Shown: positions 1,127 through 42,907 of the stretch, piece after piece
Layout: each line of letters opens with the position of its first letter
Position numbering within the stretch: position 1 is the first letter of the stretch
Assembly: GCA_029862185.1 (NCBI GenBank)
Contig: JAOTXX010000031.1
Location: 1-42,907, forward strand
Direction: 5' to 3'
Source of the DNA: Myxococcales bacterium
Lineage (GTDB): Bacteria; Myxococcota_A; Polyangia; Polyangiales; Houyiibacteriaceae
Length of the DNA stretch: 42,907 nucleotides
Program-made: the position numbers and the translations under genes
Notes under the pieces: model-generated
What the model saw: only the letters and a program-made list of their open reading frames with translations
Database searches by the model: none
What the model was told of the DNA's origin: nothing

Positions 1127-1933
1127 ATGAGCATAACACGGTCGCTGCTCGCGTCAGATTTGGATGGGACGCTGATTCCCCTCGAACGCGATCCTCAACG
1201 GTTACGCGAGGTCGCTGAGCTTGTACGCGCCGTCGGCGAGAGCGTCAACCTGATGTTGGCGTACGTCACGGGTCGGCATCTGTCGCTTGCGCGTGAAGGG
1301 ATCGCGGAGGTGGGCCTGCCCCCGCCTGACTGGTTCGTCTGCGACGTCGGGACGAGCGTCTTTCGAAAGACCGAGTCGGGCTTCGAGCCGGATGAGGGGT
1401 ACCGCGAGGCGATGAGGTCGGCGTTCGGCGGCCTGAGCGGCGCCGATGTCCGCGCCGCGATCGGCGCCGTCGAAGGGCTGACTCTGCAAGAGGACGAAAA
1501 GCAAGGCGAGTTCAAGGTCAGCTACTACACCCACGGCCGGCCCGAGCCCTACGTCGACTCCGTGCAAGCCAAGTTAGACGCGGCCAAAGCCCGGGTGAAC
1601 CTCGTCGCAAGCCATGATCCGGTCACCGATTGCGGGCTTCTCGACGTGCTTCCGTCGGGGATCGCGAAAGACTACGCCGTTGGCTACCTGCACGACCAGA
1701 GCGGCGTCGACGAGCAGCACTTGGTGTACGCAGGCGACTCGGGCAACGACCGCGCCGCGATGCTGGCTGGCTTTCGCGTCATCGTCGTCGGAAACGCCGA
1801 CGAAGAGCTCAAAAAGGATTTGGGCATCGAGGCTGTCGGCCAGGGAATCGCCGAGAAGATCTACTTCGCGGAGCATCCCTACGCGAAGGGGGTGCTGGAG
1901 GGTCTCCGACATTTTGGGTTTGTTCCGTCCTGA
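1127..1933 (+). CDS. Sucrose-phosphate phosphatase (HAD family, IIB type)
   Basis: 268 aa. It is predicted to remove phosphate from sucrose 6-phosphate, the final irreversible step of sucrose synthesis. HAD motif I is SDLDGTLIPL (first Asp is the nucleophile), motif II is around AYVTGRH, and motif IV is YAGDSGNDRAAML with the metal-binding aspartates. The cap region, including FVCDVGTSVF and KVSYY, follows the cyanobacterial/plant SPP pattern. The start is the first ATG, directly behind a palindrome and a TAGGCT hexamer, with no ribosome binding site. It is divergent from a kinase-synthase fusion whose product it would use, so a two-gene sucrose module is likely. Related HAD-IIB enzymes such as mannosyl-3-phosphoglycerate phosphatase are the main alternative, but the SPS neighbour argues for SPP. 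Confidence 0.85.
   Translation: MSITRSLLASDLDGTLIPLERDPQRLREVAELVRAVGESVNLMLAYVTGRHLSLAREGIAEVGLPPPDWFVCDVGTSVFRKTESGFEPDEGYREAMRSAFGGLSGADVRAAIGAVEGLTLQEDEKQGEFKVSYYTHGRPEPYVDSVQAKLDAAKARVNLVASHDPVTDCGLLDVLPSGIAKDYAVGYLHDQSGVDEQHLVYAGDSGNDRAAMLAGFRVIVVGNADEELKKDLGIEAVGQGIAEKIYFAEHPYAKGVLEGLRHFGFVPS
1130..1157 (-). promoter_or_regulatory. Candidate promoter of the kinase-synthase fusion
   Basis: On the minus strand, CTGACG (1152-1157), a 16-nt spacer and TATGCT (1130-1135). It would lie inside the 5' end of the divergent phosphatase gene and give a leader of about 60 nt before the GTG at 1063. The match is moderate only. Confidence 0.3.
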
Positions 1934-1935
1934 TT

Positions 1936-2045
1936 TCACGTCCCGCCCACCCCCACCTTTAATCCTCCCTGCGCGGCATTCGCTTCGCTCTGCCTTGCCG
2001 GCGCTTTGCGCCGTGCTTCGCCGCTCCGGCTCGCGCTGACGCTGT
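1936..2045 (+). repeat. Dispersed C-rich / G-quadruplex element, copy 1
   Basis: The core at 1943-1968 matches the cores at 26838-26863 (minus strand) and 42815-42840 at 24 of 26 positions. It starts 10 nt after the phosphatase stop and runs in the sense direction of that gene: CCGCCCACCCCCACC, then TTTAATCCTCC. The opposite strand has G-runs able to form a quadruplex. After the core, a segment with GCTCTGCCTTGCCGGCGC and a CGGCGC-TTT-GCGCCG hairpin (1999-2013) is shared with copy 3. It fills the gap between the convergent spp and polA genes and may end transcription. The function is inferred. Confidence 0.6.
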
Positions 2046-2049
2046 CCGC

Positions 2050-15482: not shown

Positions 15483-15821
15483 GGGGGGCAGCTTGGGGGG
15501 AGGCGCGTGCCCGGGTCAACTGCCTGGGTCAGTGCCAGCGCCGGCGTCAGTGCCAGCGTGAGTGACGGTGCCAGCGCCAATGCCAGTGTCGGCGAAGGCG
15601 CCGGCGTTCTCCCCCTCGAGAAACCTAAGCGCACATCTTGCGCCGCTCCCCCTCGATCCGAGAAAAGCGCAATCGTTCCCGGACGCGATCTCGATGGGCG
15701 CCGCGCAACCCTTGCGCACCCAAGATCCGTAAAGAATTACGTATAGTCAGAGGATTCATGACGACCCAGCTTGTTTTTGAAGCCGGCGCAAAGTCGCGTC
15801 GGTCGAACCGGGGAGGTCGTG
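15483..15821. other. Intergenic region between the DUF3422 gene and the first MRYLFG lipoprotein gene
   Basis: 339 bp without a convincing gene. It holds a 78-bp degenerate hexamer array (15528-15605). A -10-like TATAGT sits at 15742-15747 with no -35 at proper distance; the TTGCGC at 15712 is 24 nt away. The 3' end is a Shine-Dalgarno leader shared with the next lipoprotein gene. Short open frames here have no homology that I recognise. Confidence 0.5.
15528..15605. repeat. Degenerate hexamer array (13 units)
   Basis: 78 bp made of 13 six-base units such as GTCAGT, GCCAGC, GCCGGC and GTGAGT. On the minus strand the consensus is RCTGRC. The same hexamers form arrays at 26947-26970, 27155-27196 and 42719-42754. 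Units vary too much for a simple recent slippage tract, and no spacers are present. Confidence 0.65.
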
Positions 15822-26827: not shown

Positions 26828-26936
26828 GACGGGGCGCGGAGGATTACGGGTGGGGGTGGGCGGGCGGTGTAACTAAACCAAACCAGCTCCCACGTTCAGC
26901 AACCCCACCCCACCCCACCACATCCCGCGCCCCGTC
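26828..26936 (-). repeat. Dispersed C-rich / G-quadruplex element, copy 2
   Basis: 109 bp bounded by perfect 12-bp inverted arms, GACGGGGCGCGG (26828-26839) and CCGCGCCCCGTC (26925-26936). On the plus strand 26848-26864 has four G-runs separated by single bases (a strong quadruplex pattern). The 26-nt core (26838-26863, read on the minus strand) is identical to that at 42815-42840. On the minus strand it lies about 97 nt after the stop of the 48-aa gene, similar to the 92 nt after the CoA-transferase-like gene in copy 3. Confidence 0.7.
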
Positions 26937-26946
26937 GTAGTTGGAC

Positions 26947-26970
26947 GTCAGCGCCAGCGTCAGTGTCTGT
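26947..26970. repeat. Hexamer array (4 units)
   Basis: GTCAGC-GCCAGC-GTCAGT-GTCTGT: RCTGRC units on the minus strand. The TGA stop of the 48-aa gene (26960-26962) lies inside a unit. Confidence 0.55.
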
Positions 26971-27106
26971 TGGGGAGCTGGCGGCCGAAGTGGAGCACGA
27001 GCAGCCCGATCGCGACGAACGCCGGCTGCATCCATGATTGGTACCCGATGAATGCGAGCAGCAATCCTAGGCTGAGGCGTCGGAGCCGGTCTTTGGATTC
27101 GGCCAT
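26960..27106 (-). CDS. Small hydrophobic (membrane) protein of 48 aa
   Basis: Starts ATG at 27106 and ends TGA inside a hexamer array. The peptide begins MAESKDRLRRLSLGLLLAFI, giving a basic start and then one or two short membrane stretches (LSLGLLLAFIGYQSWMQ and FVAIGLLVLHFG), and ends RQLPNRH. The positive-inside pattern and the absence of shadowing by another gene support a real gene, but I do not recognise a family. It sits between two hexamer arrays in opposite orientation. Confidence 0.5.
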   Translation of the reverse strand: MAESKDRLRRLSLGLLLAFIGYQSWMQPAFVAIGLLVLHFGRQLPNRH

Positions 27107-27154
27107 GGGCTCAAAACGATCCCATGCCTGGGGCCTTCGATCGACCTTCCTGGG

Positions 27155-27196
27155 ACTGACGTTGTCACCGACACTGGCGCTGAAGCTGCCACTGGC
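27155..27196. repeat. Hexamer array (7 units), inverted relative to the one at 26947
   Basis: ACTGAC-GTTGTC-ACCGAC-ACTGGC-GCTGAA-GCTGCC-ACTGGC on the plus strand. Together with the array at 26947-26970 it forms inverted flanks around the 48-aa gene. Confidence 0.55.
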
Positions 27197-41163: not shown

Positions 41164-42272
41164 GCAAAGAAGCACACTTGGTACTTGCCGATGGAACCCG
41201 CTTTTCGGGGACCAGCTTTGGCGCCACAGGCACAGCCACCGGCGAAGCGGTGTTCACGACCGGTATGACCGGCTACGAAGAAGTCCTCACCGACCCTTCG
41301 TACTGCGGCCAAATCGTCACCATGACGGCCCCCCAGATCGGCAACACCGGCATCACGGTCGAAGACGGCGAGGCGAGGCGCCCTGCCCTTCGCGGTTTCG
41401 TCGTGCGGGAGCTGTCCGCCATCGAGAGCAATTGGCGCACGAAGGAGTCGCTCGACGCCTACCTCGCCAGAATGGGCATCGTCGGAATCACCGGCGTCGA
41501 TACCCGGACGCTCACGCGCCACATCCGGGACCAGGGCGCACAGATGGCAGCCGTTGGCACCGAAGACGCGGCATCGCTGCATGACCGCGCGAAAGCAGCG
41601 CCTCCCATGACCGGGCAGAATCTCACCGGTGAGGTGACGACGCCGGAGGTTTACCAGTGGACGGAGGGCACGGGCGTTTGGTCGGTGCCGCGCTCAGGCG
41701 CGCGCCCCTGGCACGTCGTCGCGATGGACTTCGGCGTCAAGCTCAACATCCTGCGGTGCCTCGTCGACGAGGGATGCAAGGTGTCGGTCGTTCCGGCGAC
41801 GGCAAGCGCACAGGAGGTGCTCGCGCTCGATCCGGACGGCATCTTCCTGTCCAACGGCCCCGGCGACCCGGCTGCCGTCACCGGCGGAGTCGCGACCGTC
41901 CGCGAGCTCCTGGGCCAGCGTCCCATCTTCGGCATCTGCCTCGGCCATCAGTTGATGAGCCTCGCGCTTGGGGGGCAGAGCTACAAGCTCAAGTTTGGTC
42001 ATCGCGGGCTCAATCAGCCGGTCAAAGACTTACAGACCGGCCGCATCGAGGTCACGACCCAGAACCACGGCTTCTGCGTCGATGTCGATTCCCTCAAAGG
42101 CAAGTGCGAGGTCACTCACTTGCACCTCAACGACGACACCTGCGAGGGAATCCAACACCTCGAAACCGGGGCGTTCAGCGTTCAGTACCACCCCGAAGCA
42201 GCTGCGGGGCCGCACGACTCGCGGTACCTGTTCCGGCGGTTCACCGATGCCATTGCCCGAGCACGCAGCTAG
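41160..42272 (+). CDS. carA: Carbamoyl-phosphate synthase small subunit
   Basis: 370 aa. It releases ammonia from glutamine for the large subunit CarB. The N-terminal domain carries GEAVFTTGMTGYEEVLTDPSYCGQIV (in part); the glutaminase domain has the Cys nucleophile in GICLGHQLMSLALGG and the catalytic His/Glu in QYHPEAAAGPHD. carB is not in the window; a small CoA-transferase-like gene overlaps the 3' end instead. Start overlaps pyrC. Confidence 0.97.
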   Translation: MSKEAHLVLADGTRFSGTSFGATGTATGEAVFTTGMTGYEEVLTDPSYCGQIVTMTAPQIGNTGITVEDGEARRPALRGFVVRELSAIESNWRTKESLDAYLARMGIVGITGVDTRTLTRHIRDQGAQMAAVGTEDAASLHDRAKAAPPMTGQNLTGEVTTPEVYQWTEGTGVWSVPRSGARPWHVVAMDFGVKLNILRCLVDEGCKVSVVPATASAQEVLALDPDGIFLSNGPGDPAAVTGGVATVRELLGQRPIFGICLGHQLMSLALGGQSYKLKFGHRGLNQPVKDLQTGRIEVTTQNHGFCVDVDSLKGKCEVTHLHLNDDTCEGIQHLETGAFSVQYHPEAAAGPHDSRYLFRRFTDAIARARS

Positions 42273-42723
42273 TCTCGAGCGCCTACTCTCGCGCGCCGCG
42301 GAGGAGTGCGAGTCCAAGCAGGGCATGTGGTTCGGCCGGGGCCTTCCGCAGGCGCTGCGAAGCGCGATCGATCTGCATGGCGAAGGAGCGAAGCAAGCGC
42401 CCACGGAGATCGCGTTCATCGAAGTGAGCGCGGTGTCGCCGCAGGGGCGCGCAGTGACGAATGCCGATCCGTGTGCCCTCGATTGTCCGGTCGTTGGCTT
42501 GAGCCACACCACCGTCGAGCAGCTTGGCTCACTCGTTTGCCCACGCGGCGACACTGGCGTCCAAATCACGCGTCTCATTTGTCCGTTTGCCGTATTCGAC
42601 TTCAGCCCGGAAGGGGTGCGCGTTCGAGAGGTTCGACACGGGCTGACGGCCGCAGACTTGCAGTCGAAGCTGTCGACGACCTTGTGGTCGGGACCGGATC
42701 TCAAAGAGCTGGGCACGCACTGA
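42247..42723 (+). CDS. Minimal CoA-transferase subunit B-like protein
   Basis: 158 aa, overlapping the end of carA by 26 bases in another frame. The start region LSRAAEECESKQGMWFGRGLPQAL resembles the opening of class I CoA-transferase beta subunits, and the end LICPFAVFDFSPEGVRVREVRHGLTAADL resembles their C-terminal signature. The usual subunit is about 215 aa. The central part with the catalytic Glu motif (ENG) is not present, so it is unlikely to transfer CoA by the known route. The stop TGA (42721-42723) lies within the first unit of a hexamer array. It could be a decayed or repurposed copy; homology is moderate. Confidence 0.5.
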   Translation: MPLPEHAASLERLLSRAAEECESKQGMWFGRGLPQALRSAIDLHGEGAKQAPTEIAFIEVSAVSPQGRAVTNADPCALDCPVVGLSHTTVEQLGSLVCPRGDTGVQITRLICPFAVFDFSPEGVRVREVRHGLTAADLQSKLSTTLWSGPDLKELGTH

Positions 42724-42754
42724 CGCTGGCACCGACGCTGGCACTGACGCTGCC
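42719..42754 (+). repeat. Hexamer array (6 units) overlapping a stop codon
   Basis: ACTGAC-GCTGGC-ACCGAC-GCTGGC-ACTGAC-GCTGCC. The first unit contains the TGA stop of the CoA-transferase-like gene (CAC TGA), as in the 48-aa gene at 26960. Confidence 0.65.
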
Positions 42755-42764
42755 GCGGGTGTTG

Positions 42765-42907
42765 GGGGGCGGGGGTGTTGGGTGGGTGGCGTGGTACGGC
42801 TTGTTGACACCGCCCCGCCCACCCCCACCCGTAATCCTCCCTGGCGCGGCGGTCGCTTTGCTCTGCCTTGCCGGCGCGTACGCGCCGGGCTTCGCCCTTC
42901 GGGCTCG
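42765..42907 (+). repeat. Dispersed C-rich / G-quadruplex element, copy 3 (runs off the window)
   Basis: A G-rich stretch, then the core (42815-42840, identical to copy 2) and GGCGCGGC. The perfect 18-nt palindrome CCGGCGCGTACGCGCCGG sits at 42871-42888, followed by GGGC-TTCG-CCC. The part after the core resembles copy 1 (CTCTGCCTTGCCGGCGC). The element begins 42 nt after the gene stop. Confidence 0.7.

Follow-up and report, generated by a model that had tools for sequence, protein, structure and literature searches.

A large mosaic palindromic repeat, probably mobilised in trans, in the intergenic regions of a myxobacterial genus

The element at positions 26,828 to 26,936 raises the question of whether its C-rich core is a signal in its own right at the 3' ends of genes or a part of something larger. 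The window analysed here (42,907 nt) is the whole of contig C113 of a 4.29-Mb genome (G000) in 169 contigs. Matches to the core were identified at 1944-1968 (+), 26838-26862 (-) and 42816-42840 (+), and none in 100 dinucleotide shuffles of the window. With about 50 copies in the genome-wide count that the first-pass annotation had proposed as a check, the core is real and recurrent. Copies 2 and 3, in which that annotation had found the same 26-nt core, agree without a mismatch along 27 nt, and copy 1 departs from both by a change of CG to TT. The 12-bp inverted arms noticed around copy 2 are exact (26828-26839 and 26925-26936), the tail common to copies 1 and 3 is real in sequence comparison, and the strand opposite the core, GGGTGGGGGTGGGCGGG, carries the four G-runs with one-base loops that had been described. 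The core makes up a small part of the element, of which copy 2 is a reduced form and copy 3 is truncated by the contig end. Its features in the window are given below, the modules being named from an alignment of the genome's own copies and then of 66 copies from several genomes.

1920-2046, plus strand: copy 1, a degenerate module B (core 1944-1968, hairpin tail 1969-2046) without A or C1; covariance-model match of 113 bits and sister-species comparison.
26828-26936, minus strand: copy 2, a reduced mosaic with module A and the core inside what look like C1-type ends; model match of 53.9 bits.
26838-26864, minus strand: invariant C-rich core of copy 2, whose complement is the G-run motif.
26828-26839, no strand assigned: arm of copy 2, GACGGGGCGCGG, the same as a C1 terminus.
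26925-26936, no strand assigned: opposite arm of copy 2, CCGCGCCCCGTC, the same as a C1 terminus.
42750-42814, boundary approximate, plus strand: module A of copy 3, G/T-rich, starting GCTGCCGCGGGTGTTGGGG; own-copy alignment.
42815-42907, plus strand: module B of copy 3, core 42816-42840 and hairpin tail, stopping at the contig end; the covariance-model match of this copy covers 42791-42907 with 110 bits.

The repeat is modular. Module B opens with the core, an invariant stretch GTTACACCGCC-CGCCCACCCCCACCCGTARTCCTCCCT, and continues with three hairpins; the core is no stand-alone signal and belongs to this module. Changes in module B preserve its structure, with pairing in 96.3% of cells against 84.7% in shuffled and 35-45% in slid controls. 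The changes are compensatory: 38 copies have C-G and 25 have G-C at columns 71-101, 38 have G-C and 24 have C-G at columns 77-96, and six pair types are seen at columns 79-94. Module A is G-rich, lies 5' of most B copies and can pair with the C-rich core. A linker and module C1 were identified downstream of B in at least 15 loci of G000, where the mosaic reaches ~430 nt. C1 is a near-perfect palindrome of ~190 nt with the ends GGGGCGCGG...CCGCGCCCC, an A-run and a T-run in its stem and a folding energy of -110 to -134 kcal/mol (four copies). Its pairing holds in 97.5% of cells against 85.5% in shuffled ones, and compensatory change is present here as well, 31 of 64 pairs being altered on both sides.

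C1 is also found in solitary form. Among 24 loop matches in the genome, 14 have coordinates just 3' of a B copy and the other 10 lie elsewhere, and in G001 and G012 there is C1 (6 and 16, respectively) with almost no B. As C1 also occurs alone, the mosaic is a combination of distinct palindrome families. The apparent rule that B is followed by C1 (33 of 36) was set aside as partly an artefact of picking loci by B. The third palindrome family, C2, has the ends GGAGAACGGCTCGNGA and is enriched in several species of the genus. One C1 palindrome was identified within a C2 palindrome, at L276:2118-2487 (contig C83 of G000). In several copies, such as L185 (contig C69 of G000, ~45990-46125), the linker TGCTGTCTTG is complementary over 9-10 nt to the conserved C1 loop CAAGACAGCA; long-range pairing of the two was discarded for want of compensatory change. 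Hexamer-like arrays of the CTGGCACTGACG type occur in the window at 15528-15577, 26946-26965, 27153-27176 and 42717-42752; elsewhere in the genome, many copies have such an array directly 5' of their module A.

The repeat is dispersed throughout the genome, as counted by model and pattern searches. The 4.29 Mb contain 38 exact matches to the 14-mer CGCCCACCCCCACC and none to its reversed control, and the covariance model identified 56 places, ~50 of them strong. Ten of these places lie within ~110 nt of a contig end, so the true copy number is probably higher. The core pattern (up to 2 mismatches) was identified in 15 of 19 genomes of the genus, whose members are uncultured myxobacteria, with copy numbers of 0 to 51; at the same threshold four species of the genus lacked it, as did all 38 genomes from the rest of the family or order. 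Among the matches listed from a scan across 84,980 species genomes, all belonged to metagenome assemblies named Myxococcales, Polyangiaceae, Deltaproteobacteria or unnamed bacterium. A plasmid or phage origin was dropped, as the full unit had no match in plasmid or phage records. No earlier description of the mosaic was found in the open-access literature.

The repeat has a marked preference of site. Nearly all of the 55 placed copies are wholly intergenic (genes called by a simple codon-usage script), the few overlaps being small and at gene 3' ends. Both neighbours are known for 45 copies, of which 26 lie between convergent genes, 17 between codirectional and 2 between divergent ones. A background of 400 kb from this genome, taken blind to the repeats, has 18.4% convergent gene pairs and 34% of its intergenic length divergent; the convergent excess has p = 5e-9 and the divergent deficit p = 2e-6, nearby copies being not fully independent. 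The copies avoid genes and promoters. These counts agree with the proposal that the element is dispersed and that its location at the 3' ends of genes is not random. The proposed consistent sense orientation fails, copies beside codirectional genes being 9 sense and 8 antisense; the apparent presence of a sense strand downstream of each gene comes from the convergent placement, where either orientation is sense for one neighbour.

Copy 1 occupies the gap between convergent S6PP-family and polA genes. The distances of 10, 97 and 92 nt from stop codon to core reported for the three copies stand for open frames; as regards genes, only copy 1 follows a sound one, the S6PP-family gene. At this site, module B was identified in G005, where the S6PP stop codon falls within the element sequence GGTTTGATTACACC (L210), and a short spacer without B in G003, G011, G014 and G015. 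The open frame 41968-42723, a putative gene that overlaps the end of carA and stops 92 nt before copy 3, has no Pfam match. Copy 2 lies directly 3' of a terminator-like groEL hairpin. Its arms look like the two ends of a C1 that encloses A and the core, because in G002 and G012 a C1 palindrome occupies the same spot after groEL. Module B was identified there in G004 and G006, C2-type sequence in G008, G011 and G013, and nothing comparable in G001, G003 and G014; in G016 and G018 (L233, L234) a AAGGGGACAGTCCCC pair lies 3' of groEL. The frame that copy 2 follows is one of 48 aa (26960-27106, minus strand) with a hydrophobic stretch and no significant Pfam match, there being only a weak sub-threshold one to a YgaP-like TM domain (E 0.036).

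Presence and absence of the repeat, as well as its inversion, are seen at other orthologous sites. The intergenic region at C69:45873 measures 470 nt in G000 and ~15 nt in G012, and contains an inverted B pair in G005. At C104:17460 the element is absent in G013 and present as a tandem B-B-C1 in G005. At C161:55274 it has the forward orientation in G000, G002 and G010 have the whole of it inverted, and G005 has a rearranged form. Pairs of copies at recurring spacings are seen in several species, the inverted ones 208-270 nt and the tandem ones 155-159 nt apart. Empty sites are present, with flanks too diverged or hexamer-filled to define any target-site duplication.

A search for a transposase that recognises the arms had been suggested from the beginning; mobility was the right idea, although no transposase lies beside any copy examined. 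The only Y1/RAYT-like gene of G000 is found on contig C146 (L144:4646-5299, minus strand), with an intact HUH motif (MPNHVHLL), and scores 59.3 bits against NF047646, below the 80-bit cut-off; none of the repeats studied here flanks it. Its relatives are conserved in the genus as single copies, 97% identical in G005 and 67-84% in others. Neither the B core nor the C1 loop motif was identified near the Y1 loci L134-L153, no autonomous partner with B or C1 at its ends was found, and the number of Y1 genes does not track repeat copy number, several of the genomes being incomplete. A REP with a linked RAYT was rejected on the lack of linkage and of tracking with copy number. A retron or group II intron origin was rejected as well, RVT_1 having no match in G000 (estimated 100% complete). 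On contig C95 of G012, AAGGGGACAGTCCCC palindromes flank a RAYT-like gene (L146:3831 and 4563); these palindromes are a separate REP-type system in the same genus.

The reading first given to the core was that of a Rho-dependent terminator or a quadruplex signal at 3' ends, where the core loads Rho, or the quadruplex stalls the polymerase or protects the transcript end. Every copy has a C-rich core and the copies stand at gene 3' ends. The sense RNA, said to be C-rich and G-poor, is so in the core alone, the 42 nt upstream averaging 19 G and 6 C (own-genome cores). The Rho-loading character was not borne out, the C-run being preceded by the complementary G-rich module and paired to 70% on average in predicted folds of the unit. 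A rut site, which is unpaired C-rich and G-poor RNA, was rejected on this pairing, on the G-rich 42 nt upstream and on the balanced orientation beside codirectional genes (9 versus 8). The quadruplex motif is present as a sequence pattern (four G-runs of at least 3 with short loops) and its runs are conserved, with changes in 4 of 697 cells of the runs and in 14 of 149 cells of the loops among 50 own-genome copies; such conservation would fit a quadruplex and, equally, protein recognition or pairing with module A. The element is missing from four species of the genus and from orthologous gene ends, and a 3'-end signal of either type is very unlikely. The convergent placement and the near-perfect C1 palindrome with its A-run and T-run would also suit bidirectional terminators of convergent genes, with hairpins under selection that spread by recombination and gene conversion. 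This is improbable, as groEL has its own terminator-like hairpin ahead of copy 2, orthologous sites manage without the element, 17 of the 45 copies lie not between convergent genes but codirectional ones, and part of the pattern would be predicted simply from an avoidance of promoters and genes.

A different explanation is that the A-B-C1 strand is selected to fold, as a structured RNA or as single-stranded DNA of a fixed strand, and that the repeats are copies of such a gene or of a mobile RNA. On this strand C1 has 119 G.U against 3 A.C cells, and in 23 of 25 copies the strand gives a better fold than the complementary one; compensatory change is strong, and the linker is complementary to the conserved C1 loop in several copies. 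The G.U bias is inflated, the structure having been chosen by a program that accepts G.U, and the linker-loop complementarity is without covariation. Module B has little bias of this kind (12 to 8), and here the better fold is that of the complement. No RVT_1 gene was found in G000. At the Rfam gathering score only a tRNA was identified in the loci searched, and at a relaxed score nothing credible in the full unit and the C2 unit, and a known RNA family was discarded. The explanation is on balance quite unlikely, with a moderate hint, from the predicted folds, of strand-specific selection on C1 as RNA or single-stranded DNA. It is also unlikely that A-B-C1 represents a new class of mobile structured nucleic acid, with one strand selected to fold and a transposase encoded elsewhere and unrelated to the known REP partners.

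Probably, the A/B/C1 mosaic is a genus-specific, non-autonomous mobile palindromic repeat of the REP/BIME/MITE kind, mobilised in trans. The support counted for it comprises the 56 model matches, the compensatory change in B and C1, the convergent bias and the restriction to the genus, along with the empty, inverted and duplicated sites, the different palindromes after groEL in different species, the recurring spacings of inverted and tandem pairs, the nesting of C1 in C2 and the conserved RAYT-like gene. Counted against it are the lack of an autonomous partner with B or C1 at its ends, a Y1 number that does not track the copies and the lack of a defined target-site duplication. We infer that a trans-acting transposase moves the units in the form of hairpin DNA, which is probably single-stranded. 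The best candidate for the mobiliser would be the unlinked, conserved RAYT-like Y1 (HUH) protein, a tentative assignment that is distinctly more likely wrong than right. Later inversion and deletion at the palindromes would produce reversed and reduced forms, copies 1 and 2 in the window being examples, and effects on transcript ends, if any, would be a by-product.

So understood, the mosaic widens the range of REP/BIME-type repeats to a genus of myxobacteria in which the mosaics are unusually large and nested, and its empty, inverted, tandem and reduced sites form a natural series for reading the mode of spread. Some caution is needed with such repeats, which stand here at many contig ends and may fragment metagenome assemblies, and which can mimic 3'-end regulatory signals.

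REP, BIME and REPIN repeats are intergenic, convergent or codirectional, dimeric and sometimes supply stop codons (PMC3733652, PMC3116915). The mosaic resembles them in its dispersed intergenic palindromes, which are mostly convergent or codirectional in setting, its inverted and tandem pairs, the several families per genome, the ability to supply a neighbour's stop codon and the presence of a RAYT-like gene in the genome; it differs in its ~430 nt, in the invariant C-rich core before the hairpins and in the absence of a linked RAYT. GTAG-type REPs are palindromes of 20-40 nt ending in GTAG, whereas this unit has no terminal tag and is far longer; GTAR sits inside the core, several bases 5' of the first stem (GTAA 36, GTAG 14). 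Unlike in REP/RAYT systems, the repeat does not flank a RAYT gene, the RAYT-like gene of G012 having AAGGGGACAGTCCCC palindromes instead. Owing to its size and to the absence of a terminal GTAG tag and of a linked RAYT, the mosaic is not filed as a REP, yet it appears REP-like in behaviour.

With MITEs the mosaic shares its small, non-coding nature, inverted ends (those of C1 and the copy 2 arms) and a presence that varies between species; unlike in MITEs, no target-site duplication or parent transposon was identified, and palindromes are found nested and inverted. CGTC-tagged REPs and TIR repeats have no dedicated transposase (PMC3733652). They are likewise high-copy palindromes that flank no transposase gene, but they are short (tens of bases) and different in tag and sequence. 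Finally, the mosaic BOX-type repeats of an unrelated organism are intergenic and consist of modules in fixed order. The repeat described here is similar to them, by general description rather than by sequence, in placing modules of fixed order between genes.
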